Origin: Lagopus muta
Taxonomy: Eukaryota > Chordata > Aves > Galliformes > Phasianidae
Assembly (NCBI RefSeq): GCF_023343835.1
Contig: NC_064448.1
Span: 14,601,531 to 14,665,530 of the forward strand
Direction: 5' to 3'
Length of the DNA stretch: 64,000 nucleotides
A program made the translations under genes and the position numbers. The notes under the pieces were generated by a model. That model saw only the letters and a program-made list of their open reading frames with translations, was not told the DNA's origin and ran no database searches. Below are positions 243-42,617 of the stretch, one piece after another. Position 1 is the stretch's first letter; each line of letters begins with the position of its first letter.

Positions 243-775
243 AGGGGTCCTGGTAGATGGAAAAGATAACCTGAGCCAGCAATTCGTACTTAAGGCCTGG
301 AAGGCCAACAGTATCCTGGGCTGCATCAAAAGAGAGATGGCCAGCAGTGCAAGGAAGGTGATTGTTCCCCCCATTTTGTCCTTGTGAGGTCCCATCTGGA
401 GTATTGTCTTCAGGCCTGAGACCCTCCACAAAGAGAAGATGTAGAGCTTTTGAAATGGGTCCAGAGGAGGGCCAGGAAGGCAATCAGAGGGATGGAGCAC
501 CACTCCTACAAAGAAAGGCTGAGGGAGCTTGGCTTGTTCAACCCGAGGAAGAAAAGGCTGAGGGCAGACTTCGTTGTGGCCTTCCAATACTTACATGGAG
601 CTTATTAGCAGGAGTGGAAGTCAAATTTCACATGGATGAACAGTGACAGAGCAATGGGGAACCGTTTTAAACTAAAAGAAGGGAGATTCATAGTAGATGT
701 CAGGCAACTATTTCATTGAGAGAGTGGTGAGCTGCTGGAACAGGCTGCCGAGAAAAGTTGTAATTCATATCACTT
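243..775 (+). mobile_element. CR1 LINE fragment, 3' part of ORF2, truncated
   Basis: Translated pieces resemble the region after the CR1 reverse transcriptase: a VLVDGK-like motif, SILGCIKR, and the usual [14 protein letters not shown] stretch, broken by frameshifts. The element starts abruptly at 243, whereas its mirror copy in the right arm continues for another ~470 bp. The left copy is therefore cut by the duplication breakpoint. The 3' end is interrupted near the solo LTR at 790. Confidence 0.8.
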
Positions 776-789
776 TTTTGGTTGTACAT

Positions 790-1113
790 TGTATGGGAAC
801 TGCTGAATCGTAGCCTGAACCTCTGGTTGATCATCTGAGGTGAGCAATGAGTCAGCCACGGGAACACAGGTGAAGGCAATTCAGCTGTGCTGCCGGAAGG
901 GATGGAGCCTGGCTCCACCTCTCCTAGGCCCATTTCAGAGCTGACTGCAAGTGGGGAAGGATCTCTTCTGGAGATCCATTCCACTGGAGTTTCATAAGCA
1001 AGCCCAGGATATAGGTAAGACTTCTATCTTTTCTGCTTTGGTGTAATAACTGCGTAGCCAAGCCCTTTGGTACATTTCATAGCTATAGCATCTGTACTTT
1101 CATTGATTGTACA
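790..1113 (+). mobile_element. solo LTR (ERV-L-like family, old copy)
   Basis: It begins TGTATGGGAACTGCTGA and ends GATTGTACA, about 324 bp. It aligns through its whole length with the LTRs at 8004-8364 and 10742-11102 but is clearly more diverged. Flanks read TACAT (785-789) and TACGT (1114-1118), consistent with a 5-bp target-site duplication carrying one mutation. No internal retroviral sequence is present, so this is a recombined solo LTR. Confidence 0.8.
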
Positions 1114-1119
1114 TACGTA

Positions 1120-1412
1120 CATTTGTGAAAAGTTATTGTCAAAGGTGAAGCACCAGAAGAGTAATATTTCATCAAAAATTGCTGATGAACACCTTGAGAA
1201 CTCACTAGGAGTGGCAACCGCTGCTTTTGAACAAACCTGATGTATCAATTTCACAAAAGCAAGGTCTAACATCCCACTAGTTTTTGTTGTTCCCTGTTTT
1301 TCATGTTTTTACAAAAATATGTAAAACATGCATTTTATTATAGATTTATATGCAGCCCATGACAATTTCCGTTACTCTGTGCAGCCCAGGTAAGCCAAAA
1401 TGTTGGACAACC
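1120..1412 (-). mobile_element. possible old DNA-transposon remnant
   Basis: On the minus strand the segment starts with a GGTTGTCCAACATTTTGGCT-like end followed by a 'gggctgca' motif and a short decayed frame. This opening resembles the ends of old hAT-type elements of amniote genomes. I could not find a matching terminal repeat or a transposase motif, so the class is a guess. Confidence 0.3.
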
Positions 1413-4400
1413 ATGCTCTAGGTTAATAAAGGACAATGAGAAAACCCTGATCTTAGAATGATCAAATATTGTTGTAAACTATGGAAACTGTACATGTTTT
1501 GTTTTTTTTTTTCTTTGGTTTTTTGTTGTTTTTTTTTTTTTTTTTTTTTTCTTTTACATATACTGTAAAAAAGCAGTTTACATTGTGTATCTAATTACTG
1601 GCCAAAGGGAATAGAACCTTGTATGTACCACGTGGGAACTCATCTAAAAAAAAAATAAAAAAAATTATCTTTTGCAAAGGGAAAAAAGCATGAAAAGTCT
1701 CTGTCCTACATATAGTAAATATGCTGCCCACCTGTGTCACAGTTTTTGCACATAAGATAACCTCTAGCTTTAACTTTGAATCCTGTGTATCCTGAACTAC
1801 AGTCAAAGTTTCAACCAGTTGTAGAGCAAAGGAAAGTAATGACAGAGCCTTTATTTGAGAAATAGGTGCCCTAGGAAAAGATATCCAAGAGGAATTAACT
1901 CACCCCTCCTGGTAACAGTTTAGAGAAAAGGTTGAGCAGAGGAATGTGACCCTATCCTGTTTGTACCATCGGGCTGCAGCAGAGAATGGCAGGGGAACAG
2001 GGACCTGTGCAGACTCAGACGGGACCTGAAATATCATGGAGACAGAGGGGTGGCTCTAAACCCCCTGTGCTCACTCCAGACACTCATGTACTCGTGAAGC
2101 TCACCCACTGGTTCAGGCTGAGACCTTGAAATTCCACTACAACAGTTAAATATGAAAACACTGGCAGTGTTCTTGAACAGAAAAATTAGAAAGATTTCTT
2201 TATTTAATTTCAGTACAGGAACTGTTCTTCTAGTTCAAAGGCATGATCCTTTGTCATTTGCTTGTGGCAGAACAGAACTCCTGGGAGAACCAACTCAATA
2301 GCAAGAAGCAGATCAGATGAGGGAGAATCAATGACAAGCACCACTGGTCCTGCAAATTCCATTTTGTTAAGAGAAAGGAAAATTGGCTGTGACAAAACAA
2401 AAACAACAAATGTTTTAAGGAAAAGAGAATTTGTGAAAATACGGATACCGATCTCTTTGATTGGAACTAGATGTCAGCATACTGTAAACAATTATGAGTC
2501 AAGTCATGCTGATTATCTCAAAATGTAAAAAAGGGAGGTTGAATGAATATAGAATTATCCTCCATTGCTCAGTTCTAACAAGAAGTTAGAAGGGCTTTGA
2601 AAATATGGTGTGATTAAAGCCTACTTCCTGTCTCAGAATCCATACCAGTGCACCAGAAATGTCAGCACCGTTTCAATAATTGTAGAATTACTTCCTCTTC
2701 ACATAATTAGAGCATAACTATCTGTGCATAAATGATTCTGTGACCTGAGCTACTTCTTTGAGTCTAGCACTTCTCCACGGCTAGAACAGTGTGTGCTGTT
2801 TTTTATATAGTGTTGAATTAAATTGAAACTCCTAAGTTGCAAGTCCTTTTTTCTTGCTACTTTTTGTAGACTGATGTTTCTGATCAGTAAGAGTTACTTG
2901 CATATTGTAATTAAGTCATTGGAACTTACCTCTTACATTTGAAACTGAAAAAACAAAATGCTAAGAACAATATATCTAAAACAAAGCTATTTCTACTCTT
3001 GGATTTTAAACACTTGTGATCTGTGAGTCCATTTTGGACTTTGTTTTGTTGTCAAAGGGGCTTATTTAGCACTGTGATCCTATCAAGGCACTTCCAGCTC
3101 AGATAACGAGACCTTCCTCCAGTGCTTCTATCCTTTGATGTAATAAATACACACTCTGTTACTCTGTTTGACAGAGGAGCCCGGGAAGACGTTGAAGAAG
3201 TTGAAGTAGCTTTGGAGATGGAGTGCCTTAACTTCTTTCATGTTACATTGACCAATTTTTTTCAGAGACTGTGGGTAGTATTTGTGAAAATTTTTCAAAA
3301 TAAAATGAAGTCCGAAAATAAATCCAGAGGTATTATTTAGTGAAATACAAGTTTAAATTAACATCTCTATATCTTTCTACCTCTATCATCATTCCACTGG
3401 TATTTATTTGTAATATGGTACCCTTGTCTCCCTAATACGAGAGGGAGAGAAGATTCTTTTAATATACGTATACCTGATGGCGAGATTAGGGGACGATGGG
3501 TGAAATGTTAGCCCAAGCAGATTACTACAAATCCTAGTTGTTGAAGGAGATGGGGAAGGGAAGGTGTGTGATAAAGACAGGAAATAAAAGCAAGGAGTCT
3601 TTGCAGAAAGCAAGAGAGAGATAGTCACCACTATGTTTGGTTCATAGTTCAGACACTGATCTTCAGAAGTGGTGGGTTGTCAAGGGTGGTTGTTTGGTTG
3701 ATGATGACAACAGTGGCAACAGTACCAACTTCTATAAATAAGTCCAAAGTGATCGAGTCAGCTCTCTTTTGAGTGGCAGCTTCTGGCTTTGGGATCTCAG
3801 CAGAAACTCCTTTGTTCCCATCTTCCACACCTTGTCAGCAAAGAAGAGGGAGCTGGGAGGTGCTCACCTGCATCCTGTTTTTCACAGTATGTGATGGTAT
3901 AATTCCCCAGTCTCCCACACGAAGCCGGAGTTATTTGCTCACAGGCCAGATCTTCTGCTAGTAAAAGCTCCTGAGAACTCTCTTCTGAAGGCAAAGAGTT
4001 CCAAAGGAAATGCTTTCAAATGTCCACAAAGTTATGTTGATTGCCACACAGTGACTCATCAGTCACCTCCTGGGTAAGTCAGTTAGAGTCTTATCCCCCA
4101 AAATACCTCAAAAAGCAAGCCTGGAGCCAAGAAAAAAAAGAAGGGTTCAGACCCTTGTGTATTGCCATACTTAACAAGAATACTCCTGCATGATTGTCAG
4201 TCCCTGATAGTATTCCTGTTTTATGTACTAACTAGATAACAGAACTCTTGCATAGAAATAGGAGTATTAAATTGCAAAGTCAGACACATAAATATTTGCA
4301 AATGCTAGATTTAATATTTCCCAATGAAATGTTATTCATGTGCTATTGAGGATCCATTACTGTACAGCCTTGAATCATATGGTCACTTGCTATTTTTCGT

Positions 4401-4540
4401 CAAGTCTTCATCTTAGGTACGGAATATGTCGCTTACTTTAGTCAGCAACTTTTCAATCTTTTACATTTTTCTGTTCTGTGAACAGCCCGATACCTTATTT
4501 ACCGCATAGTATTCCAACTGTGCTTTGAAAACAGAATAGT
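1413..4540. other. unique-looking AT-rich arm interior, no gene seen
   Basis: No open frame here is longer than about 90 codons and none shows a recognisable domain. A T-rich tract (about 1501-1552) holds the one arm-to-arm difference. The stretch has no obvious repeat content, so it is the best part of the arm for measuring true divergence from 17484-20610. Confidence 0.6.
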
Positions 4541-4542
4541 TA

Positions 4543-5895
4543 GAATCAAAGAATCATAGAATCACCAAGGTTGGAAAAGACCTAAAAGATCATCCAGTCC
4601 AACCGTTCACCTATTACCAATAGCTCCCACTAAATCTTGTCCCTCAACACAATATCCAGTCTTTCCTTGAACACCCCCAGGGTCAGTGACTACACCACCT
4701 CCCTGGGCAGTCCATTCCAGTGCCTGACCACCCTTTCCGAAAAGTAATACTTCCTCATGTCCAGCCTGAATCTCCCGTCGTAGCTTGAAACCATTCCCTC
4801 TGCTCCTATCACTAATGACACGAGAGAAGAGGCCGACCCCCAGCCCACTACAACCTCCCTTCAGGAAGTTATAGAGAGCAATGAGGTCTCCCCTGAGCTC
4901 CTCTTCTCCAAGCTGAACATTCCCAGCTCCTTCAACCTCTCCTCATATGGCCTGTGTTCCTCATATGACCTCACAGCTGGTGAGCTGTGTTCCTCACCAG
5001 CTTTGTTGCCCTCCTCTGAACACGTTCCAGGGCCTCCATGTCTTTCTTGCAGTGAGGGGCCCAAAACTGGACACAGTACTCGAGGTCGAGTACAGGGGAA
5101 CTCTCTGTTCCTGCTTGCAACGCTGTTTCTGATGCAAGCCAGGATGCCATTGGCCTTCTTGGCCTCCTGGGCACACTGTCAGCTCATGTTCAGCCGAGCA
5201 TCAATCAATACCCCCAGGTCCATTTCCTCTACACAGTCCTCCAGCCACACCGCCCCAAGCCTGTAGCGTCGCCTGGGATTGTTGTAGCCGAAGTGCAGGA
5301 CACGGCATTTGGCCTTGTTGAAACTCATCCCATTGGCTTCAACCCAGCTCTCCCACCGGTCCAGATCCCTCTGGAGGGCCTCGCTACCCCCAGGCAGATC
5401 CACACTTCCAGCCAATTTGGTGCCATCTGCGAATTTACTGAGGGTGCACTCGATGCCCTCATCCAGGTCATCAATAAAGATATTGAAGAGGACTGGCCCC
5501 AGCACTGACCCCTGGGGAACACCACTCAGGAACGGTTGCCAGCTGGATTTAACTCCACTCTCTGATTCACCACCACTCTCTGAGCTCGGCCCTCCAGCCA
5601 GCTCCTCACCCAGCCAAGAGTGTACCCATCCAAGCCTCGGGCTGCCAGCTTCTGCAGGAGAATACTGCGGGAGACAGTGTCAAAGGCTTTGCTGAAGTCT
5701 AGGTAGACCACATCAACAGCCTTTCCCTCATCCACCAGATGGGTCACTAGATCATAGAAGGAGATCAGGTTGGTCAAACAGGACCTGCCCTTCACGAACC
5801 CATGCTGGCTAGGCCTGATCCCCCCCCCCAGTCACCCCGCACATGCCGCATGGTCTCCCTCAAGACGATCTGCTCCATAACCTTCCCTGGAGTAG
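4543..5895 (-). mobile_element. CR1 LINE, 3' ~1.35 kb, decayed ORF2
   Basis: The 3' end, on the left, carries the CR1 terminal repeat (agaatcaaagaatcatag) followed by 'tcaccaaggttgg'. Reading leftward from 5795, reverse-transcriptase pieces show [11 protein letters not shown] (RT motif A region), then [18 protein letters not shown] and FADGTKL, where the family has FADD. The second catalytic Asp of that motif is thus replaced by Gly, and frames are broken between 5505 and 5526. A C10 run lies near 5820. The copy straddles the inner end of the left arm: only its 3' part, to about 4960, is duplicated in the right arm. Around 4961-5005 it holds a ~27-bp insertion relative to the right copy. Confidence 0.9.
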
Positions 5896-7998
5896 GGGAA
5901 AAATGCTTACCTGCTTAGGTACCTATTTTGTTCCCCATATCTGCCCATTTATATCTTACTAATAGTGATAGATGCTAAAAATGTCTCTGTGTGAGATCTG
6001 AGAAGTGAAGAAAGAGGATGAATTTATCTTTAGGGAAGAAAAGAAAAAAGACATCATGCATGAAATAAGGTATCAGACCTGCATTGTGTATTATCTTTTG
6101 AGACTGTGTCTTTCTAATGAAGGATCCTAGCAGAGACTGCAGAAATACAAGAAAGACTACTCAGAGTAGCAGCTGTTTCATCTGCAGGAGATGGATTGGG
6201 TTCTCTCTCTGGGTCCATGGGCCTGGGATCTAGTGGGTTGTCTGACCCATCCCAGTGATTATTTAAGGTTGCACCAGAATGTTTTTAACTCAGGACACTT
6301 GAGTCAGATGTCTCTCACTCAGAGCAGGGGAAAAATGGTGCAGAGTGAAAGCATGAAGGAAATGAAAGAGCAGCTACAGGTGTGCAACGGCTCCTTTGTG
6401 TATTTGTCCATATCATATTCATACGAAGGCTGCATCTTTTCTTTCACTCATACTGCCTTGTAACAGTTTTCTGATGCTAATCCTAAAAGCATTCTCATCT
6501 TCTATTGATCATCTGACACCTATAGCTCATCTCATTACTCTTCAAAAATCCTGCTATCAACTTAGCCTATTTCAGTAAAAATGCACAAGTATTTCACAAC
6601 TGTCACCAGCACACACTCCTTTTGTTGATTCACTTTGAAATGCTTTTTTTCCATGTCTGTTCTTTTGACCTTTTAAAGACCTGCAATAACATTGGTAATT
6701 TCAAAATTTAGTAAGATTTATTTTTCCTTACTGATCCCTGATTTGACAAAACAATGGCTTAAAGGACCTTCCATAATTTCACAGGCAAATATCGGCAACT
6801 CAGTGTGGAAAGGCAGTTTGGACAACCATGTAGCTCTCAGCTATCTTTGGGAATCTTTCAGACTTTGGAGGTAAGAGAGATGTCCTCCTTGGAGACATTT
6901 TGTTTGTTTCTCATTTGGTTTCTAGTGAAGAAGCAATGGAAATGGTCTTTTTATCACATCTTCAAGCATAGCAAGGATTATGATTTTTTTCTGTCAACCT
7001 GGATGGCAATCTTTTACTCTTTACTATGGGTGTAGATAAAATGTCTTGAATGGGAGGCCTTAATCATTTACAGAAGAATGCTTTCTTATGAGCACAGTGG
7101 ATAGAAGCACCTTGGCTTTGGTGCCCACTTTTATGCAATTTTCCCTCTACAACAACAAAATTTGCTCCCTGCTAAAACATTCTATGTTGGTTTTCCTTGT
7201 ATTCTTTTTCATTTAGCTCTCCCACTGTTACTTCAGTGCTTCCTTCCCTTCCCTTCGTTTCCCTTCCCTTCTCTTTCTCCTTACCACCACCACCACCACC
7301 AAAAACCCCTTTTTATTGAAGTCTGACACTATTCCATGTGGAGGAATCACTGGACTGGAAGGAATCTGAGCACTGCCAGATTCACTCTCCCTGGCCAGCA
7401 GCAGCACACATGCTGTCACTCTCACAACACATCAATATTCCAATTTCTCTTCTCTTGGAAAAGAAACAGGAAGTGGATAACAATCTGTACCTATGCACAT
7501 TTTCTGCCACAGACATGAGTTCAACTTAGCCCTCCATCTTTTATCTCTTAAATTTTCAGTTACATTTATTTGCATTTGCAGTGTATGACAATTTAAGCAA
7601 CAATAGAGTCATCTATTTGGAGGACAAACGATCTTACACCTTGTATTTAGATTCTGTGACTAACGAAAAATGGAGCCAAGATCTACAGGAGCCATTGTAA
7701 AGAAATAGGCCGGATAACTAAGCAACAGGTGAAACTCATTGTAAGTCAAACTGAAGTAAGGCAAAGGGAGACAGCCTGTCTTGGCATGAATTATAAAGGA
7801 CCAAACGCTAAGTATGACTACTGGGAAATGTGGTCTTGGCTTACTTTAGGTAATTCCATGAAAATATCCACTCTGTGCTCTATTACGTCAGAAACGTAAT
7901 TGAATTATTCTGAATAATTAGTAGAGTAATAAGGATAAAAACATCTTTGGGTGACTTAACTAACGCAAGATGGATCCCATCCCTTTTGAATACAATGC
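5896..7998. other. gene-free spacer with small simple repeats
   Basis: No frame above 90 codons and no recognised domain. A polypyrimidine tract (about 7238-7282) is followed by a short CCA/CAC triplet run (about 7285-7303). The rest is AT-rich with no visible repeat structure. Confidence 0.6.
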
Positions 7999-8003
7999 CT
8001 GGA
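7999..8003. other. ERV target-site duplication, left copy (CTGGA)
   Basis: CTGGA immediately precedes the 5' LTR and is repeated at 11103-11107 just after the 3' LTR. A 5-bp duplication is expected for ERV-L-type integration and shows the insertion is still at its original site. Confidence 0.9.
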
Positions 8004-8364
8004 TGTATGGGAACTGCTGAGTCACGGCCTGAACGTCTGATTAATCACCTGAGGTGAGCCATGAGTCAGCCAGAGGAGCACAGGTGAAGGCAATTCACCT
8101 GTGCTGCTGGAAGGGGTGGAGCCAGGCTCCACCCCTCCTAGACCTATTTAAGAGCTGGCTACCACAGGGGAAGGATCTCTTCTGGAGATCCCCTCTTTTG
8201 GTGTCTTTTGGTGAGCTCAACTGAAGGGTTAGCTCTTCCACTTATTCTCTTTTTGTTTTCATTGTCTGCTTTGCCTTACTCTCTTGATTATATTGCGATT
8301 ATAACATCTTGATATCTATTGATTATACACAATTATATTGTGATTATAACATCTTGGTTATACA
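8004..8364 (+). mobile_element. 5' LTR
   Basis: 361 bp, TGTATGGG...TTATACA. U3 contains a palindrome TCACCTGAGGTGA (8045-8057), an AP-1-type TGAGTCA (8063-8069), a 10-bp inverted repeat CACAGGTGAA (8079-8088) / TTCACCTGTG (8094-8103), an 11-bp-stem inverted repeat GGGGTGGAGCC / GGCTCCACCCC (about 8113-8135), and a TATA-like CTATTTAAG (8144-8152). The end is rich in TTATAT/GATTATA repeats. Confidence 0.93.
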
Positions 8365-8405
8365 CTTGGTGAGCCAGGCAGGCCGAATATACTGAAATTA
8401 ACATC
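8365..8405 (+). promoter_or_regulatory. leader with candidate primer-binding site
   Basis: Just inside the 5' LTR the sequence reads CTTGGTGAGCCAGGCAGG. A TGG trinucleotide 2 bp inside the LTR is where a tRNA-primer site should begin. I cannot assign it confidently to a particular tRNA. It lies 41 bp upstream of the gag start. Confidence 0.5.
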
Positions 8406-8993
8406 ATGTCTTTTCTATGGAATTTCTATAAATGGGTCAAGGGGGAGAACAATACTCCTCTAGAGAAAATGATTCCAGGGCAGATCCCAGGATTTGAGGG
8501 ATCGCCCTATTATGAGTTAGCTACTATCATTGAAAAATGGGGTCCCTTACGCGTTAAGGGCAATCTCTCCCCATATCGCATGGTGGGCTATTTTCAAGGA
8601 CTTGTCAAGGATGTCCTCACTACTAAAGAAAGACAACTGGCTGCCTCCTTGGTGGCATGGCCATTATTAACTGCCTTAAATCATGCGGACTTAAGAAATA
8701 ATACTTTAGAAACTGAAAATCAGCTTTTGAAAGACTGCATTGAAAAGCTGGAGCACGAACTTGGCGTTTTAACAGGGAAGAAGCCAATTCTACATCTTCC
8801 TGTAGGCCAAATTCGTAACATTTCAATAAATGATGACCAGACTCCTGAATCAACAGACTTCGTTGATCAGGAGAACAAGAAATCCAAATCAGATCTTGAA
8901 TGTCCAACTCTAACTGATCCACTGGAAGTCCGTCCTGTTGTAACCCAAAAAAACAAAAAAAGTACAGGACAGACCGTCAGGGGTGCCGCCTGA
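8406..8993 (+). pseudogene. gag-like N-terminal frame of the ERV (195 codons)
   Basis: ATG at 8406 opens directly after the LTR/leader, and the frame stays open to TGA at 8993. The start MSFLWNFYKWVKGENN and the following GxIPG and PYRMVG-like wording suit a matrix-type Gag N-terminus. A leucine-rich heptad stretch around residues 100-122 predicts a coiled coil, followed by a charged Lys/Asp/Ser-rich tail. In full-length relatives Gag continues into capsid. Here the capsid start is found one frame over (8998-9140), so a frameshift near 8985 separates them. As a short coiled-coil protein it could still be translated from the LTR promoter; whether it is made is unknown. Confidence 0.75.
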
Positions 8994-8997
8994 TCAA

Positions 8998-9140
8998 TGG
9001 CCCCCTGCCCAGACTCATTTACATGTTACAGCTCGGCCATACACGGCAACAGAATTAATGGACTTAGTACAAAGATTTCGGCAGAAGCCTAGAGAAAGTG
9101 TGCCGGCTTGGTTATTGAGACTGTGGGATTCTGGGGCAAA
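8998..9140 (+). pseudogene. gag capsid-start fragment of the ERV
   Basis: In the frame read from about 8986, a ~48-residue stretch includes PPDQWPPAQTH, TATELMDLVQRFRQKP and WLLRLWDSGA, which resembles the start of a retroviral capsid domain. It breaks off near 9136-9150, where the sequence passes directly into the C-terminal end of RNase H in a different frame. That is the internal deletion junction. Confidence 0.7.
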
Positions 9141-10325
9141 GACATGTGGTTAGATATATGGAATACGGTCAAACACAGGACTGTACGTGTCTACCATGTT
9201 TCTGGTCATCAGCCCCTACAGTCACCAGGAAACGATGAAGCCGACACACTGGCCCGAGTTCGATGGATTGAGAATTCACCATCTGAGAACATCGCCCGCT
9301 GGTTACATCAGAAGCTACGGCATGCTGGACAAAAGACAATGTGGGCAGCTGCTAAAGCATGGGGACTGCCCATACAACTATCTGATATCGTCCAGGCATG
9401 CCAGGATTGCGACGCTTGCTCCAAGATGAGACTGAGATCGTTGCCCGAAACAACAGCCCATCTTGCTAGGGGACACAATCCTCTCCAGCGATGGCAGGTC
9501 GATTACATCGGGCCCCTTCCTCGCTCCGAAGGGGCAAGATACGCCCTGACCTGTGTCGACACTGCAAGTGGGCTACTGCAGGCCTATCCAGTACCGAAAG
9601 CAAACCAGGCATATACCATCAAGGCACTCACTAAACTGATGTCTGCCTACGGGACACCTCAAGTCATCGAGAGCAACCAAGGGACTCATTTTACTGGTGC
9701 AACGATACAGCGCTGGGCAGAAGAAAATAACATCGAATGGCGATTCCACCTGCCATATAATCCAATGGGGGCAGGCCTCATCGAACGTTATAATGGTATT
9801 CTTAAGGCTGCCCTGAAGACAGACTCCCAGTCCTTGCAGGGGTGGACAAAAAGACTGTATGAAACCCTGCGGGACCTGAATGAAAGACCTCGAGATGGCA
9901 GACCCAGTGCCCTGAGAATGTTGCAGATGACATGGGCCACCCCGCTTAGGATCCAAATTACGGGCACTGATCATCAGGTAAGACCCCAGATTGGTAATGA
10001 AAATAATCTTCTGCTCCCTGCCCCTGAAAACTTAGAGCCAGGTACCCATAAAATAAAATGGAAGGTGCAGGTAGGACCCAAGTGGTGTGGCCTACTTGCA
10101 CCTTGGGGGAGACTATTGGAGGTGGGAGGCTCAGTAGTCCTACATGGCCTACTGATATTGTGGTCAACACTCCGATCTTTATTGCTAAAGGGACCCCCAT
10201 CGTGTCCATGTGGCAGATCAGGACACCTCCTTTGGTGCCTGATATCGTTATGCAGCCGCAGATATCCGGCCAAAAGGTGTGGTACAGGCGGCCAGGACGT
10301 GCCCCAGTACAAGCGGAAGTGTTGA
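9108..10325 (+). pseudogene. pol remnant: RNase H end and integrase of the ERV
   Basis: The single frame of ~405 codons has no conventional start. The first ~12 residues belong to the deletion junction. Residues ~12-50 are an RNase H C-terminus (YHVSGHQPLQSPGNDEADTLA). Residues ~66-104 hold the integrase HHCC zinc-binding region (HQKLRHAG ... CQDCDAC). The catalytic core follows: D132 in RWQVDYIGPL and E226 in GLIERYNG are present, but position 190 is Asn (VIESNQGTHF) where the family has the second catalytic Asp. The DDE triad is therefore broken. After about residue 345 the frame departs from the expected C-terminal sequence, which continues in the frame at 10058-10414. Product: non-functional integrase remnant. 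Confidence 0.88.
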
Positions 10326-10414
10326 CCCAAGACAGAAATACGGCCTGTATCTTGCCCTGGAGAGCAGACCTTCCCCTCCTGGTACCTGTAAAACATCTGT
10401 ATTACTCCCCGTGA
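10058..10414 (+). pseudogene. displaced C-terminal pol frame of the ERV
   Basis: Downstream of the integrase core the likely continuation lies in another frame and ends at a TGA just after ...HLYYSP near 10414. It shows a Gly/Trp-rich beta-type wording (IFIAKGTPIVSMWQIRTPP) followed by a basic, proline-rich tail. It could be the integrase C-terminal region or a following domain; no dUTPase motif was recognised. Confidence 0.5.
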
Positions 10415-10728
10415 GTCTGTGAGCCTTCAGGACCACCGGAAGGAACAAAATGCCATCAAGCGTTCCAGTGTTGCTGTCAGATCACGTACAACAACCGGTG
10501 ATGGTCTGCATGGGACTGATGGAACATAGAATGGACTTGCACCTCAGGACCTCATGCCTCCAGTCATATCATCGAGCACTGGCCCATAGAAGAATATAGA
10601 CTAATCATCACTTGTCTTGAACTGTACCAACACACGTCGCGATAAAATTGTATAAGCGTCGCGATATACCAGATCTCTGTATTAGGGAAAGCTTACCCTT
10701 TTGTTAACCCGATCATTGGTTCATGCCG
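10415..10728 (+). other. 3' non-coding part of the ERV
   Basis: No frame of note between the pol end and the polypurine tract. No env-like segment is present. Two CGTCGCGATA-like motifs occur close together near 10637 and 10658. Confidence 0.55.
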
Positions 10729-10741
10729 TGAAGGGGTGGAG
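10729..10741 (+). promoter_or_regulatory. polypurine tract of the ERV
   Basis: GAAGGGGTGGAG directly abuts the TG of the 3' LTR, the position and composition of a plus-strand priming site. Confidence 0.85.
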
Positions 10742-11102: not shown

Positions 11103-11107
11103 CTGGA

Positions 11108-12395
11108 TTTCTTATCTCCACTCCAGAAGGACATAATAGAACTGGAAATAATACCGATAAAAACAAACAAACAAACAAAAAAATAGTTTTGAAGGTTCTG
11201 AAGGCATATATTTTACATCACTTGATTTCTTTTCACACTCAGGATATTGCACAAGTTGTATTTAGTAGACTGAATTTTAGTGAAATTGGAATGTAAACCA
11301 AAGTATTTCAGGTTTACAAAGCAAAATGGAAAAGGGGAGAGAGCTAGGAAAGAAAACATTTTCCTCTCCTTGGCAACAACATCCAGAAATTTGAAGACAA
11401 TTCTTACGCTTGATTTGAAAACATTTCAGAACAATTCTTTCAACATACTCCTTTCTTCCTAACAACAATAGTTCAGACTCTACTGAGCAGTAAGTGGTCA
11501 GTAACTCTGGTTTCAGAGGACAAAGCCAGAAAAAAGGCTTCATATTTCATCTGCTACTGCTTGGCATGGCGGAGCTTGGCCTGATACGGTGAAGTGAAAC
11601 ATACTCATCAGGTACTCATCTTCCACTTCAGAATCTTCAATTTAGCCTTGTGGATACCCCTTCTGGCTGAAGTTTCAGTAACGCTATTTAATAAGTTTTT
11701 TAAATCTCCATTTTCATTATGAAGGGATGATTCAAAACTATTTTTTAAAAACTCCCTAAAGCCATGAAGAGTAGCGATCTCAAGATTATAGAGACAATAT
11801 AGCTGAGAAATGAGTGTGATCCGGAGGATATAAAGGAAAACAAGTTCCCTACTTTTGCTTACCTTTACTTTCCCAACACGTGTTTTTTTTCCTATGCACT
11901 TCAGGTGCAAGCGTAAACACTCAAAACTACAGATAAACCACGATGAAACAGAAACACAATCATGATGTATGTTCCCCTGCCAAATGCTCTAGGAGTCTTA
12001 ACCAAGGTTTACGGAACCAAAATCAGATTGCTAGTTTCCGAAAGAGATTTGGTGATGGCAATGGCTTTGAGGTTTTCAAAGGAATAAGCCACTGTGAGCA
12101 TAAAATACAGCCAAGGACTAGGTAACATTATTGAAACTGGTAGTTATGAGTTTGCTTCTCATCCAACATAAATGGCAGAGAGGTGTATCTATCAGTGGTA
12201 GAAAAAGAGAGACCACATTCTACATCACAAATATAGGTGGCAACACTAAATAAAATGCAGGTCACATGAGCAGATGATTTACAAAAGAAAAAGAAAACAA
12301 ATGAAATCAGAGTCAGCCTGAAGATATTTCTACCAGAAACACCTAAGAGCCATCACCTCCTTTCCTATCACTGCTTTATCACTGTTCCTGGGAGA
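11108..12395. other. gene-free spacer
   Basis: Includes a short (AAAC)n tract near 11160-11180. The longest frame (11608-11910, minus, 100 codons) has no recognised motif, codon bias or splice context. No repeat family was recognised. Confidence 0.5.
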
Positions 12396-12399
12396 AGAA

Positions 12400-12640
12400 C
12401 ATGTTTCAGGGAGTTACAGGGAGTGATAAGGTCTCCCTTGGAGCCTTACCTTCTCCAGACTAAACAATCCTAGCTCCCTCAGCCACTCCCCAAAAGACTT
12501 GGATTTCAGACCATTCTCCAGCTTCGTTGCCCCTCTCCGGACACATGCCATGGCCTCAAGGTCTTTCTTGTAGTGAGTGGCCCAAAACTGAACACACAGC
12601 TCATGTTGTGGCCTCACGAGGCAGACAATCACCTCTTTAG
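12400..12640 (-). mobile_element. short CR1 fragment
   Basis: Contains the CR1 ORF2 C-terminal wording in decayed form (a VQFWATHYKKDLEAM-like stretch, then [11 protein letters not shown]). It lacks the 3' terminal repeat, so both ends are truncated. Confidence 0.8.
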
Positions 12641-12889
12641 TCCCTCCTGAATGATCTTTGAACTCTCTAATATGTACTATCTTTGTGTCTTTATATACTT
12701 GACTGTGAATTATTCAGGCCCCTCGATGAATTCTGTGAAAAGCATCATCATAGACTGCCAGCAAAGAAATCAGTACAGCATAAAACTGCACTGTGATTAA
12801 ACTAGAAACCTGGAATCAGATACATGGATCATCTAAAAGTAATGGTTCCTATTTATTTATTTCCATGGAAACGAAAACTGATACAAAGG

Positions 12890-13290
12890 GCACAATAACA
12901 CAGTTTGATAGAGAAAATTCTCAGCTACAAAGCCTTTTTTTTTCAACATAATCCCTGTCATCAGCCAATCGGTGCAGACGAGCTGCTTGAGACACTCTTT
13001 ATTTCACGGTGTGACAGCTGCGCATGGCCACCCAGAAGGTGGCTTGCTTTTCACATTGCTGTTGCCACTGTTGAAATGCACTCCGTGTGCTCACATCCAC
13101 TGTTTGGTCTCCATAAACATTCAGCAAGTGTTGATGAATGTTAATGGATGCCATTTTTTCCATGCTGTGGAATTCAAATCCAAACCCTTGCTTCATCGAT
13201 ACTTCCCCGTCATGCACCATTTTGTCAGACTTGCACCTCTGCTGCCATCAAGTTGGCAACAAAATGTAATGAAATAGTGACAGAAAGGTT
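12890..13290 (-). mobile_element. mariner-like transposon remnant (transposase N-terminus)
   Basis: On the minus strand a short frame (about 13220-12999) reads IHQHLLNVYGDQTVDVST, the helix-turn-helix wording at the start of mariner transposases (family form ...RRLLNVYGDQTVDVSTVRRW). It then decays, with a break right after that motif. The terminal part near 12930-12950 has the T-run followed by CAACATAATCCCTGTCATCAG typical of mariner sub-terminal sequence. Catalytic residues are absent. Confidence 0.65.
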
Positions 13291-14324
13291 CCACTTCTAC
13301 CGCCGAACCAGAAACACCCACTTCTGATACCATGAGCAAACACAATAGAACAGGAGGCATTAATTTCAGTTCAGCTCTTGTACAACGTATGAATAAATAT
13401 AAAATTTTGGTATTCCTGAATTATTTTGATAAAACATAATGCTCATCAGTTATGAATTTTGTCCAAATTAAAAAAGACACTGGACTACAAATTGCCATTA
13501 TGCCTCTCATTAGTGCCACATAGCTTACAAGTGTGTCATTGGTGCCACATAGCTTACAAGACGCCTGCCTTCTGCATGGTCTCGAACAGGGGTGATGGCA
13601 GTGACCACACCATTTCATCTCATCTCTACTGCGATGAAAGAACAACCTGGGCTATCCTATTGGTTGGTTTCACCCCAGGAAATTCAGCAAAATCTCATCT
13701 TTGTCTTTTGTAGTGAATTTCACCAGAGTGGGACTCATGGTGGCTATACAAGCCAGTAAACAAGGCCAGTAACTAGTTTCTTGTCACAGGCTACAGCTTT
13801 CTAATATGCCAGCAACACATGGCTCTGAGCTTGCTTAGGCCTGCCTGGAGACTTATTTGTGCTTCTTTAGCTGTTGACAGCAATTGTCTAATCACCAAGC
13901 CAATACTGCTTACTTTTTCTTTACCTGGCTTGAAACAATCTCATGCTCCGACACCTAATGTATAATTGCAGCTATTGGATACTGTCCTGCTATGTGTACC
14001 TGCTGAGGTGCATTTAGAAAGACTACAGCACAAACAGCAGAATCTGCCCAGGCAGAATATGAAAGACAGGAGGTGCTTCTAGAAATACATATGCAGTAAA
14101 AGGAAGGCTAGGGTGAATGTGCACCCTCAGTAGAATGGGGCAGGCATGGAGGGCATGGAGGGCATGGAGCCTCCTGTGCTGCATGTGATCATCCAAAACA
14201 AGATTGGAGAAAATCATGAAGAGCTCAGAACCACAGTGTGACTCCATCAGTGCCAAGACAGAGATGTCATGGACAGCTCTGGGCAAGAAATTGTGGGGGG
14301 GACCAGGCACTGTGCAAGACACCA
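13291..14324. other. spacer with two small local duplications
   Basis: A 23-bp unit (TTAGTGCCACATAGCTTACA-like) occurs twice, near 13508 and 13538. A GGGCATGGAG 10-mer is tandemly tripled near 14143-14168. No gene is seen. Confidence 0.55.
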
Positions 14325-16905
14325 ATGAAAGAAAGTGCCACGCATTTGTGAGAAAACTGGTGTTTCATGAGGGAAAGTGCCACATATTTCGGGTACAAAT
14401 GGTATTTCTGTGATAAAATGCCAAAAGTCTGGGAGTGAGTGTCATGATGAGGAGTGTAATGCAGTCTGTTTGGGAGGAAATGGGAGGTATTTCTAAGAGT
14501 ACTCTATTTTTCTGGGAGAGAATGTCCTATTCAGGGAAGAAAAGTGGTATTTCTTACCAAAAACGCCGTCCAGTTCGGAGACAATCTCCTATATGTGGGA
14601 GAAGAGTAGTATTTCTGTGAGAAAATGTCCTATTCTTGGTTGCAAGTGTCATATTTGGTATTGTCCTCTGATATTTTGGGGAGAAAACCTGTGGTAGTTG
14701 TAAGAAAATGGGTATTTCTGGGATAAAATATCCTATTTTTGGAAGAAAAGGTCAGCTTTCCAACTGAAACGTGGTATTTCTGTGAGAAAATGACCTACTT
14801 GTTGGAGAAAAGGGGGAAATTCTGGGCAGGAATGTCTTCTATTTGAGAGCAACTGTCTTCTTTTTGGAGTGCAAACCGGTCCTTTGGGGAGCAAATAGGG
14901 TCTATATGGGAGAAAATGTCGTCTTCAGGAGTGTAAAGTAGTACTTTTGAGAGAAAATGGAAGGTATTTCTCAGAAAACTGCCATTTCTGGGAGAAGACA
15001 GCATGCTTTGTTGGAAAATGACATCTATTTGTGAGCAAGCTGGGATTTGGGGGAGAAAATGCCGCATTTTAAAGAATAAGCTGGTATTTCCGGGGGAATA
15101 TGTCCCATCTTTGTTAGACAACTGGAGTATCTGATGTGAAATGTCATTTTGATGGGAGTAAACATGATCTTGAGGAGTGTAAAGTAGCAATCTTGGGATG
15201 AAATGTGAGGTATTTCTAAGGGTACAGGTATTCCTGGGAGAAAATGTCTTGTTTCTGAGAGAAAATGTCGTCGTACTTTGGGGGGAGAAACTGATATTTC
15301 TGTGATACAATGCCCTATTTCTGGGAATGTGTCATATTGAGGAGTGTGAAGTTGTATTTTTGGTAGAAAATGGGAGGCGTTTCTAAGAGAACTGGTATTT
15401 CTGGGAGAAAATGTCTTATCTTGGGGGGGAAAGTTCCTATGCCTGTGAGAGAGCTGTGTTTCCTGGAGAAACTGTCTTCTTTAGGCAGAAAAGATCACAT
15501 ATTTGCGAGAAAGCTGGTATTTCTGGGAGGAAATATCATATTTTGTTGGAAAATGTCACATTTGCTATTTGTGCTATTTGCACAATATGTGCTATTTGCA
15601 CATTTGCTACTGTCACGTAGTATTTTGTGGATGAAACATGAAGTATACCTAAGCAAACCTGTATTTCTGGTAGAAAACGTCATCTCTTTGGGGAGAAGAC
15701 TGGTATTTCAGGGAGAAAATATCCTTGTTTGGAAGAAAGTGTCCTCTTTCAGATTGAAATGTGATACTTGTGGTCGAAACTGTCCTACGTTTGGGCGAAA
15801 ACTGGTATTTCTGGGAGATAATGTCATTTTATTGGAGCAAGCCATCGTTTCGGGGAGAGAATGTCTTATTTTTGAAGAAAATGCCGTACCGGGGGGAGAC
15901 GGGACTGGCATTTCTGGGAGGAAATGTCATTTTCTGGGGAGAAGATGTCACCTTGAGGATTGTAATGTCGTATTGTTTGGAGAAGGCCTGAGGTATTTCT
16001 AAGAGAAGTGGTATTCCCAGGAGACAGTATCATATTTTGGGGGAGTGGGGGAGGGGTGATCATCTATTTGGGAGAAAGCTGGTATTTCTGGGAGAAAACA
16101 CCCTCTGTTGAAGAGCCAAGTGGTATTTCTGGCAGGAAATGTCCCACATTTGGGAGTCAAGTGGCATTTCTGTGATAAATGCCGTATTGTTTGGAGTAAG
16201 TGTCATACTAAGGTGTGCAAAGTAGTCTACTAGGGAGGAAATTGGAGGTATTGCTTTGAAAGCTGGTATTTCAGGGAGAAAACGTCTTCTTTCTGGGGGA
16301 AAATGTCATCTGTTTGAGAGAATGCCGATAAGTCTGGAAGAAGATCTATTTTTGGAGGAAACTGTAATATTAGGGAGAGAAAAGTGGTATTTCTGGTCCA
16401 AGATGTCATCGAGTTGGGATAACGCTGGTGTTTCTGGGAGAAAACATCCAAAATATTTTGGATGAAAATGTGGTCTTTAGGGTTGAAATGTGGTATTTCT
16501 GGGAGGAAATGGAATATGCATGAGAGAAAACTGCTCCTTTGGGGAGAATGTATCCTATTTTTGGCAGGAAATGTCCTGTTGAACAGTTTAAGTCTGCATT
16601 TTTTGGAGAAAATGTAAGCTATTATCAAGAAAACTGGTATTTCTTGGAGATTATCACATATTTGGTTGGAAAACGTGGTATATTTGAGAGAATGCTACTA
16701 TTTCTGGAAAAGCATAGCATATATTTTTAAGAGAACACGGAGTACTGAGAGGAAATGTCATCGTTTTTTGGTGAAAAAATCATATTTAGGGGAATAGAAT
16801 CGTGTTTCTGGAAGAAAAAGTGAGAAAACTGGTATTTCTGGGGGAAAATGTCATACATGAGGGAGAAAACTGGTATTTCTGTGAATGAATGCCATCGAGA
16901 ATTAC
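14325..16905. repeat. 2.6-kb degenerate 20-21-bp (41-bp dimer) minisatellite
   Basis: The stretch is built from ~20-21-bp modules with an approximate form (N)TATTTCTGGGAGAAAATG(T/C). Modules alternate, so the clearest period is ~41 bp, with T-runs and A-runs regularly spaced and G-rich links between. This architecture matches published descriptions of galliform XhoI-family (~21 bp) and CNM/PO41 (41-42 bp) satellites, but I could not compare consensus sequences. The unit is not a multiple of three, so long frames on both strands here (for example 15370-16002) are by-products. Confidence 0.85.
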
Positions 16906-16912
16906 TGCATTT

Positions 16913-16968
16913 TCTCCTTCTCCTTCTCCTTCTCCTTCTCCTTCTCCTTTTCCTTTTCCTTTTCCTTT
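16913..16968. repeat. polypyrimidine microsatellite (TTCTCC / TTTTCC)n
   Basis: About nine hexamer-like units, first CTTCTC then CTTTTC. It lies between the minisatellite and the truncated CR1 that opens the right arm. A purine version of the same kind of repeat abuts another CR1 5' end at 26766-26812. Confidence 0.85.
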
Positions 16969-16989
16969 CCATGCATGATTTGGATCATG

Positions 16990-17482
16990 GGCCCTCACTG
17001 CAAGAAAGACATGGAGGCCCTGGAACGTGTTCAGAGGAGGGCAACAAAGCTGGTGAGGGGTCTGGAACACAGGCCATATGAGGAGAGGCTGAAGGAGCTG
17101 GGAATGTTCAGCTTGGAGAAGAGGAGCTCAGGGGAGACCTCATTGCTCTCTATAACTTCCTGAAGGGAGGTTGTAGTGGGCTGGGGGTCGGCCTCTTCTC
17201 TCGTGTCATTAGTGATAGGAGCAGAGGGAATGGTTTCAAGCTACGACGGGAGATTCAGGCTGGACATGAGGAAGTATTACTTTTCGGAAAGGGTGGTCAG
17301 GCACTGGAATGGACTGCCCAGGGAGGTGGTGTAGTCACTGACCCTGGGGGTGTTCAAGGAAAGACTGGATATTGTGTTGAGGGACAAGATTTAGTGGGAG
17401 CTATTGGTAATAGGTGAACGGTTGGACTGGATGATCTTTTAGGTCTTTTCCAACCTTGGTGATTCTATGATTCTTTGATTCT
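16990..17482 (+). mobile_element. CR1 3' end, 5'-truncated (right-arm copy)
   Basis: Starts within the CR1 sequence for [20 protein letters not shown], followed by [17 protein letters not shown], and runs to the 3' repeat GATTCTATGATTCTTTGATT. From 17064 onward it is the exact reverse complement of the left-arm CR1. From 16993 to 17063 the two copies are only ordinary CR1 homologues. Confidence 0.9.
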
Positions 17483-17483
17483 A

Positions 17484-20400
17484 ACTATTCTGTTTTCAAA
17501 GCACAGTTGGAATACTATGCGGTAAATAAGGTATCGGGCTGTTCACAGAACAGAAAAATGTAAAAGATTGAAAAGTTGCTGACTAAAGTAAGCGACATAT
17601 TCCGTACCTAAGATGAAGACTTGACGAAAAATAGCAAGTGACCATATGATTCAAGGCTGTACAGTAATGGATCCTCAATAGCACATGAATAACATTTCAT
17701 TGGGAAATATTAAATCTAGCATTTGCAAATATTTATGTGTCTGACTTTGCAATTTAATACTCCTATTTCTATGCAAGAGTTCTGTTATCTAGTTAGTACA
17801 TAAAACAGGAATACTATCAGGGACTGACAATCATGCAGGAGTATTCTTGTTAAGTATGGCAATACACAAGGGTCTGAACCCTTCTTTTTTTTCTTGGCTC
17901 CAGGCTTGCTTTTTGAGGTATTTTGGGGGATAAGACTCTAACTGACTTACCCAGGAGGTGACTGATGAGTCACTGTGTGGCAATCAACATAACTTTGTGG
18001 ACATTTGAAAGCATTTCCTTTGGAACTCTTTGCCTTCAGAAGAGAGTTCTCAGGAGCTTTTACTAGCAGAAGATCTGGCCTGTGAGCAAATAACTCCGGC
18101 TTCGTGTGGGAGACTGGGGAATTATACCATCACATACTGTGAAAAACAGGATGCAGGTGAGCACCTCCCAGCTCCCTCTTCTTTGCTGACAAGGTGTGGA
18201 AGATGGGAACAAAGGAGTTTCTGCTGAGATCCCAAAGCCAGAAGCTGCCACTCAAAAGAGAGCTGACTCGATCACTTTGGACTTATTTATAGAAGTTGGT
18301 ACTGTTGCCACTGTTGTCATCATCAACCAAACAACCACCCTTGACAACCCACCACTTCTGAAGATCAGTGTCTGAACTATGAACCAAACATAGTGGTGAC
18401 TATCTCTCTCTTGCTTTCTGCAAAGACTCCTTGCTTTTATTTCCTGTCTTTATCACACACCTTCCCTTCCCCATCTCCTTCAACAACTAGGATTTGTAGT
18501 AATCTGCTTGGGCTAACATTTCACCCATCGTCCCCTAATCTCGCCATCAGGTATACGTATATTAAAAGAATCTTCTCTCCCTCTCGTATTAGGGAGACAA
18601 GGGTACCATATTACAAATAAATACCAGTGGAATGATGATAGAGGTAGAAAGATATAGAGATGTTAATTTAAACTTGTATTTCACTAAATAATACCTCTGG
18701 ATTTATTTTCGGACTTCATTTTATTTTGAAAAATTTTCACAAATACTACCCACAGTCTCTGAAAAAAATTGGTCAATGTAACATGAAAGAAGTTAAGGCA
18801 CTCCATCTCCAAAGCTACTTCAACTTCTTCAACGTCTTCCCGGGCTCCTCTGTCAAACAGAGTAACAGAGTGTGTATTTATTACATCAAAGGATAGAAGC
18901 ACTGGAGGAAGGTCTCGTTATCTGAGCTGGAAGTGCCTTGATAGGATCACAGTGCTAAATAAGCCCCTTTGACAACAAAACAAAGTCCAAAATGGACTCA
19001 CAGATCACAAGTGTTTAAAATCCAAGAGTAGAAATAGCTTTGTTTTAGATATATTGTTCTTAGCATTTTGTTTTTTCAGTTTCAAATGTAAGAGGTAAGT
19101 TCCAATGACTTAATTACAATATGCAAGTAACTCTTACTGATCAGAAACATCAGTCTACAAAAAGTAGCAAGAAAAAAGGACTTGCAACTTAGGAGTTTCA
19201 ATTTAATTCAACACTATATAAAAAACAGCACACACTGTTCTAGCCGTGGAGAAGTGCTAGACTCAAAGAAGTAGCTCAGGTCACAGAATCATTTATGCAC
19301 AGATAGTTATGCTCTAATTATGTGAAGAGGAAGTAATTCTACAATTATTGAAACGGTGCTGACATTTCTGGTGCACTGGTATGGATTCTGAGACAGGAAG
19401 TAGGCTTTAATCACACCATATTTTCAAAGCCCTTCTAACTTCTTGTTAGAACTGAGCAATGGAGGATAATTCTATATTCATTCAACCTCCCTTTTTTACA
19501 TTTTGAGATAATCAGCATGACTTGACTCATAATTGTTTACAGTATGCTGACATCTAGTTCCAATCAAAGAGATCGGTATCCGTATTTTCACAAATTCTCT
19601 TTTCCTTAAAACATTTGTTGTTTTTGTTTTGTCACAGCCAATTTTCCTTTCTCTTAACAAAATGGAATTTGCAGGACCAGTGGTGCTTGTCATTGATTCT
19701 CCCTCATCTGATCTGCTTCTTGCTATTGAGTTGGTTCTCCCAGGAGTTCTGTTCTGCCACAAGCAAATGACAAAGGATCATGCCTTTGAACTAGAAGAAC
19801 AGTTCCTGTACTGAAATTAAATAAAGAAATCTTTCTAATTTTTCTGTTCAAGAACACTGCCAGTGTTTTCATATTTAACTGTTGTAGTGGAATTTCAAGG
19901 TCTCAGCCTGAACCAGTGGGTGAGCTTCACGAGTACATGAGTGTCTGGAGTGAGCACAGGGGGTTTAGAGCCACCCCTCTGTCTCCATGATATTTCAGGT
20001 CCCGTCTGAGTCTGCACAGGTCCCTGTTCCCCTGCCATTCTCTGCTGCAGCCCGATGGTACAAACAGGATAGGGTCACATTCCTCTGCTCAACCTTTTCT
20101 CTAAACTGTTACCAGGAGGGGTGAGTTAATTCCTCTTGGATATCTTTTCCTAGGGCACCTATTTCTCAAATAAAGGCTCTGTCATTACTTTCCTTTGCTC
20201 TACAACTGGTTGAAACTTTGACTGTAGTTCAGGATACACAGGATTCAAAGTTAAAGCTAGAGGTTATCTTATGTGCAAAAACTGTGACACAGGTGGGCAG
20301 CATATTTACTATATGTAGGACAGAGACTTTTCATGCTTTTTTCCCTTTGCAAAAGATAATTTTTTTTATTTTTTTTTTAGATGAGTTCCCACGTGGTACA

Positions 20401-20610
20401 TACAAGGTTCTATTCCCTTTGGCCAGTAATTAGATACACAATGTAAACTGCTTTTTTACAGTATATGTAAAAGAAAAAAAAAAAAAAAAAAAACCAACAA
20501 AAAACCAAAGAAAAAAAAAAACAAAACATGTACAGTTTCCATAGTTTACAACAATATTTGATCATTCTAAGATCAGGGTTTTCTCATTGTCCTTTATTAA
20601 CCTAGAGCAT
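17484..20610. other. unique-looking right-arm interior, no gene seen
   Basis: Mirror of 1413-4540. No recognised coding sequence. The A20/A11 runs at 20474-20521 correspond to the left-arm T tract, with one base less and a T-to-G-type difference at the edge. Confidence 0.6.
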
Positions 20611-20903
20611 GGTTGTCCAACATTTTGGCTTACCTGGGCTGCACAGAGTAACGGAAATTGTCATGGGCTGCATATAAATCTATAATAAAATGCATGTTTT
20701 ACATATTTTTGTAAAAACATGAAAAACAGGGAACAACAAAAACTAGTGGGATGTTAGACCTTGCTTTTGTGAAATTGATACATCAGGTTTGTTCAAAAGC
20801 AGCGGTTGCCACTCCTAGTGAGTTCTCAAGGTGTTCATCAGCAATTTTTGATGAAATATTACTCTTCTGGTGCTTCACCTTTGACAATAACTTTTCACAA
20901 ATG
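20611..20903 (+). mobile_element. possible old DNA-transposon remnant, mirror copy
   Basis: Reverse-complement partner of 1120-1412, with the GGTTGTCCAACATTTTGGCT-like end at about 20611. Same uncertainty about class. Confidence 0.3.
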
Positions 20904-20909
20904 TACGTA

Positions 20910-21233
20910 TGTACAATCAATGAAAGTACAGATGCTATAGCTATGAAATGTACCAAAGGGCTTGGCTACGCAGTTATTACACCAAAGCAGAAAAGATAGA
21001 AGTCTTACCTATATCCTGGGCTTGCTTATGAAACTCCAGTGGAATGGATCTCCAGAAGAGATCCTTCCCCACTTGCAGTCAGCTCTGAAATGGGCCTAGG
21101 AGAGGTGGAGCCAGGCTCCATCCCTTCCGGCAGCACAGCTGAATTGCCTTCACCTGTGTTCCCGTGGCTGACTCATTGCTCACCTCAGATGATCAACCAG
21201 AGGTTCAGGCTGCGATTCAGCAGTTCCCATACA
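20910..21233 (-). mobile_element. solo LTR, mirror copy
   Basis: Reverse complement of the left-arm solo LTR, including its imperfect 5-bp flanking duplication. It was duplicated with the arm, not independently inserted. Confidence 0.8.
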
Positions 21234-21247
21234 ATGTACAACCAAAA

Positions 21248-22250
21248 AAGTGATATGAATTACAACTTTTCTCGGCAGCCTGTTCCAGCAGCTCACCACT
21301 CTCTCAATGAAATAGTTGCCTGACATCTACTATGAATCTCCCTTCTTTTAGTTTAAAACGGTTCCCCATTGCTCTGTCACTGTTCATCCATGTGAAATTT
21401 GACTTCCACTCCTGCTAATAAGCTCCATGTAAGTATTGGAAGGCCACAACGAAGTCTGCCCTCAGCCTTTTCTTCCTCGGGTTGAACAAGCCAAGCTCCC
21501 TCAGCCTTTCTTTGTAGGAGTGGTGCTCCATCCCTCTGATTGCCTTCCTGGCCCTCCTCTGGACCCATTTCAAAAGCTCTACATCTTCTCTTTGTGGAGG
21601 GTCTCAGGCCTGAAGACAATACTCCAGATGGGACCTCACAAGGACAAAATGGGGGGAACAATCACCTTCCTTGCACTGCTGGCCATCTCTCTTTTGATGC
21701 AGCCCAGGATACTGTTGGCCTTCCAGGCCTTAAGTACGAATTGCTGGCTCAGGTTATCTTTTCCATCTACCAGGACCCCTAAGTCCTTCTCAGTAGAGTT
21801 GCTCTCAAGGAGATCTCCCAGTCTGTATGTGCGTCTGGGACTGCAACAGACCAAGTGCAGCACTTTGCACTTGATCTTGCTGAACATCATTACTTTCTTG
21901 CGGGAAAAATTTTCAATCCTGTTCGAATCCTTCCAGGTGGCATCCCTTTCTTCTGTTATATCACCTGTACCACTTAACTTGATGTTGCCTGCAAACTTGC
22001 TGAGGGTGCACTTGATCCCATCATCTATGTCTATTAATAAAGTTGTTAAAGAGCACTACTCCCAAGAGATACTACTGGAAGTCGCTACTCCTCACCAGCC
22101 TCCACCTGTTGACCACAACCCACAGGCTGTGACTTTTGAATCAATTCCTTATCCACCAAATAGTTCACCCTTTGAATCCATAACTCTCCAGTGTAGAGAT
22201 AAGGTTGTGAAATGAGACCACATCAAAGGCCTTGCAGATGTTCAGATCAG
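21248..22250 (-). mobile_element. CR1 LINE fragment, ~1 kb
   Basis: The part to 21780 is shared with the left arm. Beyond it the CR1 continues with sequence for the end of the reverse transcriptase (VLHLVCCSPRRTYRLGDL-like, then VLVDGKDNLSQQF) and earlier RT pieces near 21990-22060. Several frameshifts are present. This is an older subfamily than the copy at 52541-53875, judged by divergence. Confidence 0.82.
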
Positions 22251-42490: not shown

Positions 42491-42617
42491 GAGGGGTGGA
42501 GCCAGGCTGAGCCCCATCCCATCCCAGGTGAACTGCTCCCACCAGTGCTTGCAGGGCTACACCCCTCACCAAGTGCTCAATCACTGTTTTAGGTTATGAC
42601 CTCACAGTTCCCATACA
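42489..42617 (-). mobile_element. LTR 5' fragment, same family group
   Basis: On the minus strand it begins TGTATGGGAACTGTGAGG at 42617 and ~110 bp later has CTGGCTCCACCCCTCC, both landmarks of the 8004 LTR. The intervening U3 is diverged, and the fragment stops where the tandem repeat begins. Confidence 0.6.

Follow-up and report, generated by a model that had tools for sequence, protein, structure and literature searches.

A near-identical inverted repeat in Lagopus muta, probably the arms of an old palindromic segmental duplication homogenised by gene conversion

Near the left-hand end of the window, the 64,000-nucleotide stretch of Lagopus muta contig NC_064448.1 (C19) analysed here, two inverted arms of almost identical sequence flank a non-palindromic spacer, raising the question of how they came to be so alike. 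An earlier note on this DNA had listed recent duplication, palindrome gene conversion as on sex chromosomes, and an assembly artefact as the options. The explanation favoured here, with good though incomplete confidence, is that the repeat is the surviving arm pair of an old palindromic segmental duplication found on several autosomes, and that its arms were recently homogenised by arm-to-arm gene conversion.

Structure of the inverted repeat and its surroundings

BLAST of the window against itself aligns positions 243-4960 with 21780-17064 over 4,718 columns at 99.915% identity, with three mismatches and one gap opening (E = 0), which bears out the inverted repeat at 243..21780 described in the earlier note, as well as its paired coordinate sums of 22023/22024 with one net indel in a poly-T tract. 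Global alignment places the differences between the arms at 811 (T/C), in the poly-T tract at 1529-1530, where the gap opens, and at 4935 (A/G). The coordinates given previously for the arm ends are correct, but the arms do not stop at 4960/17064. Beyond a swap of 31 bp in arm 1 (4961-4991) for 5 bp in arm 2, the match picks up again between 4992-5063 and 17058-16988 (98.6%, one gap, no mismatches). With this extension, self BLAST and alignment delimit arm 1 (A') at 243..5063 on the reverse strand and arm 2 (A) at 16988..21780 on the forward strand, giving two inverted arms of approximately 4.8 kb, more than 99% alike, around a spacer proper of 11.9 kb (5064-16987).

The 31-bp insertion (4961..4991, forward strand) is absent from arm 2 and from the seven other copies compared (C14, C11, C8L, C8R, C7, C1 and C19L). 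It contains local partial copies, with TCATATG(A/G)CC repeated and a CACAGCT-GGTG-AGCTGTG stretch that can form a CACAGCT/AGCTGTG hairpin, and looks like a templated repair scar. A mobile element with fixed ends was considered and rejected, as the end of the match at 4960 is an artefact of this insertion private to arm 1, while position 243 lies within CR1-like sequence that is unbroken at C14, C21, C8 and C1. The solo LTR with a mutated target duplication that had been noted earlier is located at 790..1113 on the forward strand of arm 1, with flanks TACAT/TACGT, and its mirror image occupies 20910-21233 in arm 2. No ORF of at least 130 aa lies wholly inside the shared arms in the ORF listing, the scope of which is unspliced frames; the ORF at 21436-22215 starts in the CR1-like sequence of arm 2 and continues into its right outer flank, Y. 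No gene function is implied by the repeat, and arm identity is proposed to arise incidentally when homologous blocks in inverted orientation take part in repair.

The remaining segments are named in arm-2 orientation, with primes marking the inverse. R is the reverse of 5064-8003 plus 11103-11183, X is 11191-16987, Y lies beyond 21780 and G is 1-242. G, the left outer flank of arm 1, is a GGGATT-like degenerate repeat (1..242, forward strand) and forms the end of a block of approximately 1.5 kb that extends at least 1.24 kb to the left of the window. The first part of R' (5064..8003, forward strand), which is spacer in the window and palindrome arm on C8, is continuous with arm 1, as it is at C14, C11, C7 and C8, with its first part also at C1. 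It is interrupted by an internally deleted insertion resembling an endogenous retrovirus (8004..11102, forward strand), with LTRs 98.1% alike, an integrase-core domain in one ORF and the 5-bp target duplication CTGGA at 7999-8003 and 11103-11107. Copies on C11, C14 and C22 and the left copy on C8 match across its empty site. It may be akin to ENS-1/ERNI, which is offered as a lead only, and the divergence of its LTRs suggests that the insertion is older than the arm identity. The second part of R' (11103..11183, forward strand) is joined to X at approximately 11183-11191, a junction not seen at the copies read. X (11191..16987, forward strand) combines a diverged satellite-like stretch with a TTCTCC microsatellite. 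The satellite-like stretch, at about 14360-16900, is built of degenerate GGTATTTCTGGGAGAAAATGTC-type units of approximately 21 bp and resembles the TTTTC/GAAAA satellites of galliform centromeres or W. Y, the right outer flank of arm 2, was compared as far as 24500 (21781..24500, forward strand).

Other repeats occur nearby. A second inverted repeat, IR2, pairs 49303-56994 with 66938-74629 (C19:14668468-14676159, just right of the window) over 7,692 bp with three mismatches and no gap, around a spacer of 9.9 kb, and most of its block occurs as single copies on C21 and C7 at 95-99% identity among the best 40 of 13616 candidates. Within IR2, open frames at approximately 49357-49900 (...YIYWY..., ...YCCAYW, broken by a stop) read like a T-cell-receptor-type V segment; no Pfam domain was found in these two frames. 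A 406-aa ORF for a CR1-type reverse transcriptase at 52651-53871 on the reverse strand has many copies of approximately 98% identity across the genome, and on C21 and C7 the IR2 block matches across its empty site, suggesting a young LINE insertion. A third near-perfect inverted repeat, of at least 1,172 bp with one mismatch, lies near the C11 duplicon copy (C11:36625001-36626172 versus 36631391-36632562). A 1.1-kb block to the left of arm 1 (-1277..-193) is duplicated in direct orientation inside the window at 42207-43297, with 95% identity.

A dispersed duplicon with old edges and a palindromic ancestor

Copies of the arm, whole or in part, occur on C14 (94%, nearly full length), C11, C21, C7, C8 (two regions), C22 and C1 among the best 40 of 17349 candidates scored, so that copy numbers are lower bounds. 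X is additionally found on C10, C17 and C25 among the best 39-40 candidates, again as lower bounds. Segmental duplications are defined by a length of at least 1 kb and at least 90% identity (PMC2640414); the C14 copy lies above both values, as do partial copies of at least 1 kb at 91-98% on C11, C21, C7, C8 and C22. On this comparison the window arms belong to a segmental duplicon that is dispersed over the genome. Many of the copies are near contig ends, including those on C14 (0.15-0.19 of 19.8 Mb), C11 (approximately 0.1 Mb from the end), C21 (0.12 Mb), C22 (4-10 kb) and C17 (0.08 Mb), while those on C8 (29.5 and 30.9 Mb), C1 (75.3 Mb) and C7 (0.93 Mb) are less close.

The window itself lies 17.7 kb from the end of C19; no telomere array was seen by eye in the last 4.2 kb of the contig, or by TRF in the last 7.7 kb. 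Exons of HINT1 map to C59, C58 carries a HINT1W-like array, and C19 has neither. Thirty-eight autosomes and 18 unlocalised pieces make 56 entries before W and Z, which fits the contig numbers and would place W and Z among C57-C59. HINT1 placement and contig numbering together indicate that C19 is most likely an autosome, and a W-linked palindrome is rejected on the same evidence. Of the options in the earlier note, gene conversion is the best supported, most likely on an autosome and not on a sex chromosome. The HINT1W-like exons on C58, a probable W-linked contig, form a tandem array with a period of approximately 5.7 kb for much of its length.

Three of the four arm edges are common to diverged loci. 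The edge between arm 1 and R' is continuous at five other contigs (C14, C11, C7, C8 and C1) and that between arm 2 and Y at four (C14, C21, C8 and C1), while the outer flank of arm 1 (-1239..241) matches C8:29.52 Mb (L008) at 91.96% over 1,504 columns, directly beside arm sequence, the equivalent of approximately 243-830 being missing there at a TGATC microhomology. These three edges are, by this measure, older than the 3-8% divergence between the loci. The fourth, between X and A (16987/16988), did not turn up at the copies read. With edges this old, neither arm can be a simple recent transplant, which makes homologous overwriting, that is gene conversion, the best explanation. The simple recent inverted duplication envisaged in the earlier note is contradicted by the same age.

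The ancestral arrangement is best preserved at C8:30.88-30.92 Mb, where the order is A'R'X' - centre - X R A Y. Its arms match in stretches of 99.986% (7,306 columns), 99.48% (4,978 columns; 15 mismatches, 11 gaps) and 98.75% (1,204 columns; six mismatches, nine gaps) around a spacer of 1.55 kb, a reading that covers all but 4.9 kb on the left and 0.8 kb within the spacer. The order is X' (part) - centre - X R A Y on C14 and Y'A'R'X' (part) - centre - X on C11. X is therefore present, whole or partly, on both sides of a centre at all three loci, and what separates X' from X on C14 is homologous to its C11 counterpart (92% over 1.8 kb), both centres also matching the right-hand 0.4 kb of the C8 spacer into its inner right arm at 90-91%. 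The common X' - centre - X indicates that the palindrome formed before these copies parted, and the ancestral unit is best explained as roughly Y'A'R'X' - centre - X R A Y. The window order, G A'R'[ERV] X A Y, keeps the segment order and orientation of the palindrome, with X', the centre and the right-hand copy of R missing, a layout that two internal deletions would yield. The absence of the centre does count against the favoured reading, since the descent of the window copy from the palindrome rests on segment order.

A recent common source of the arms

The two window arms share 48 states that are absent from the other loci counted, at 4,257 sites where those loci agree, yet differ from one another at three of 4,717 sites. 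The count draws on the copies on C14, C11, C21, C7, C8, C22 and C1 as far as they extend, exclusive of that at C8:29.52 Mb, and each private site is covered by three to five contigs. The single-copy R' of the spacer has 39 private changes in 2,701 sites. Per lineage, the arms differ by 0.03% as against a private branch of approximately 1.1%, so their last common source would be about 3% as old as that branch, a rough figure that ignores exchange. Arm 1 is the one that changed at 4935 and gained the 31-bp insertion, and it is probably also the one that changed at 811. Against the favoured reading, the C8:29.52 Mb copy shares the flank of arm 1, yet is barely closer to the window inside the arm. 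It covers 13 of the 48 private sites, with the window state at five and that of the other loci at seven, and shares five states with the window compared to 0-3 for other loci over 1,184 sites, which is not decisive on the direction of conversion. Such weak kinship is expected if arm 1 was overwritten, in which case it lends no independent support.

Base composition lends the favoured reading no support. The GC content is 0.411 in the arm, 0.408 in X and 0.439 in R'. GC-biased conversion was looked for in the window arms and not seen, the shared private states including 21 W>S and 22 S>W changes, a comparison of low power. The corresponding counts for the C8 arms are mixed (29:12 in A, 76:38 in X and 18:25 in R), and the ratio varies widely among single-copy loci too. 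GC bias is a common signature of conversion and no strict requirement, and this test decides nothing on conversion.

The related palindromes serve as internal controls. The C8 arms differ at none of 5,707 X sites, one of 2,372 R sites and one of 1,198 A sites, despite 135 private X states, while the X arms differ at 51 of 2,080 sites on C14 and 18 of 1,304 on C11. Four-way site patterns group the arms by locus at 80:0:0 (C8 and C14), 64:0:0 (C8 and C11) and 55:0:0 (window and C8), and weakly at 4:0:0 (C14 and C11). In the trees the two C8 arms pair with zero branch length, and a clade of the left C8 and left C14 copies is rejected (AU p = 1.3e-6). The shorter alignment joins the left X of C14 to the right X of the same contig (support 62), the longer one to the right X of C11 (support 82). 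The latter grouping tells against the favoured reading in so far as it makes exchange between chromosomes possible as well. Had the C8 palindrome formed anew on its own, its arms would likewise show zero differences, but the shared centre would not be accounted for. Across these four loci the pattern suggests that homogenisation is strong with long arms (C8 and the window) and weak or absent in remnants of 1.3-2.2 kb (C11 and C14). For a fuller history the chances appear evenly balanced: one palindrome would have arisen once and reached four or more autosomes, in many cases close to a contig end, each well-preserved copy homogenising its own arms independently, with long arms staying identical (C8 and the window) and arms shortened by deletions losing their identity (C14 and C11).

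Under homogenisation by gene conversion, the window copy would have lost the centre, X' and the right-hand R, and an endogenous retrovirus would have entered R', with A' and A left approximately 12 kb apart in inverted orientation. Both arms would long have been in place when, recently, one was overwritten with the sequence of the other across essentially the whole shared 4.8 kb, perhaps through ectopic gene conversion inside one chromatid or from one sister chromatid to the other. Seamless placing of a copy in an old context calls for homologous recombination, which points to gene conversion in one long tract or several.

The most serious rival, although an unlikely one, is that a larger block (for example R A Y) was recently duplicated in place in inverted orientation and that immediate deletions then cut the common part down to A. 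It would account for identity that ends sharply at 243 and close to 5063, the stretch from 243 to 811 showing no unconverted fringe, and IR2, on the same contig end and with single copies on C7 and C21 among those best 40 candidates, suggests that young inverted duplications may form here. The outer flanks of the arms are, however, shared with different loci at 3-8% divergence, so that the new copy must have landed seamlessly in old context, and the retroviral insertion in R' seems to go back much further than the arm identity. An assembly artefact, in the form of a contig that is collapsed, chimeric or folded back, is far less probable. The locus does lie near a contig end within duplicated sequence, with its X|A junction not seen at other copies read, but the window contains no N, arm 1 has private changes, and both outer edges and the inner edge of arm 1 recur elsewhere, which also makes the mis-join suggested earlier improbable. 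Fold-back reads are not known to produce a 12-kb non-palindromic spacer, and the usual HiFi reads are longer than these arms. Selective or functional maintenance, as proposed for the ampliconic gene palindromes of sex chromosomes, is the least credible account, having in its favour a near-identity like that of Y, X and W palindromes and against it the lack of any unspliced ORF of 130 aa or more wholly within the arms and the probable autosomal location.

Comparison with known palindromes and duplications

Arm-to-arm conversion is known on the mammalian X and Y (PMC8981503) and has been reported for avian W palindromes (PMC7787181). The mammalian X/Y palindromes resemble the window repeat in their inverted arms of more than 99.9% identity and their unstable spacers, and in primate X palindromes the arm sequence of one copy can be found in the spacer of another (PMC8981503). 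The window differs in being most likely autosomal, in its 4.8-kb arms, which contain no long ORF (simulations of primate X palindromes used median arms of 37 kb; PMC8981503), in the lack of a detected GC bias and in its paralogous copies on many other contigs. The duck W carries 38 palindromes of 15.2-345.5 kb formed of nested repeats (PMC7787181). These share with the window a bird host, construction from repeats and the lack of evident functional genes, whereas the window is probably not on W or Z and its arms belong to a dispersed segmental duplicon. Human segmental duplications are likewise subject to interlocus gene conversion, an exchange between duplicated blocks (PMC3790853); in the window the pair is inverted and on one chromosome, with related palindromes on other contigs as internal controls.

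What is unusual here is an autosomal bird palindrome family with both converted and drifting members in one genome. No report of this family was seen among the literature listed, which leaves out most subscription journals. Conversion between arms is mostly treated as a means by which sex chromosomes are rescued from the effects of not recombining. If the favoured reading is true, an autosomal family with some members homogenised and others drifting would suggest that inverted homology suffices, and arm length, spacer and location could be compared within one genome. It would also serve as a warning against dating duplications by the identity of duplicons near chromosome ends. Under the fuller history outlined above, the family would represent an autosomal counterpart of the sex-chromosome palindromes, without obvious genes, and a natural experiment on the control of conversion by arm length and spacer.
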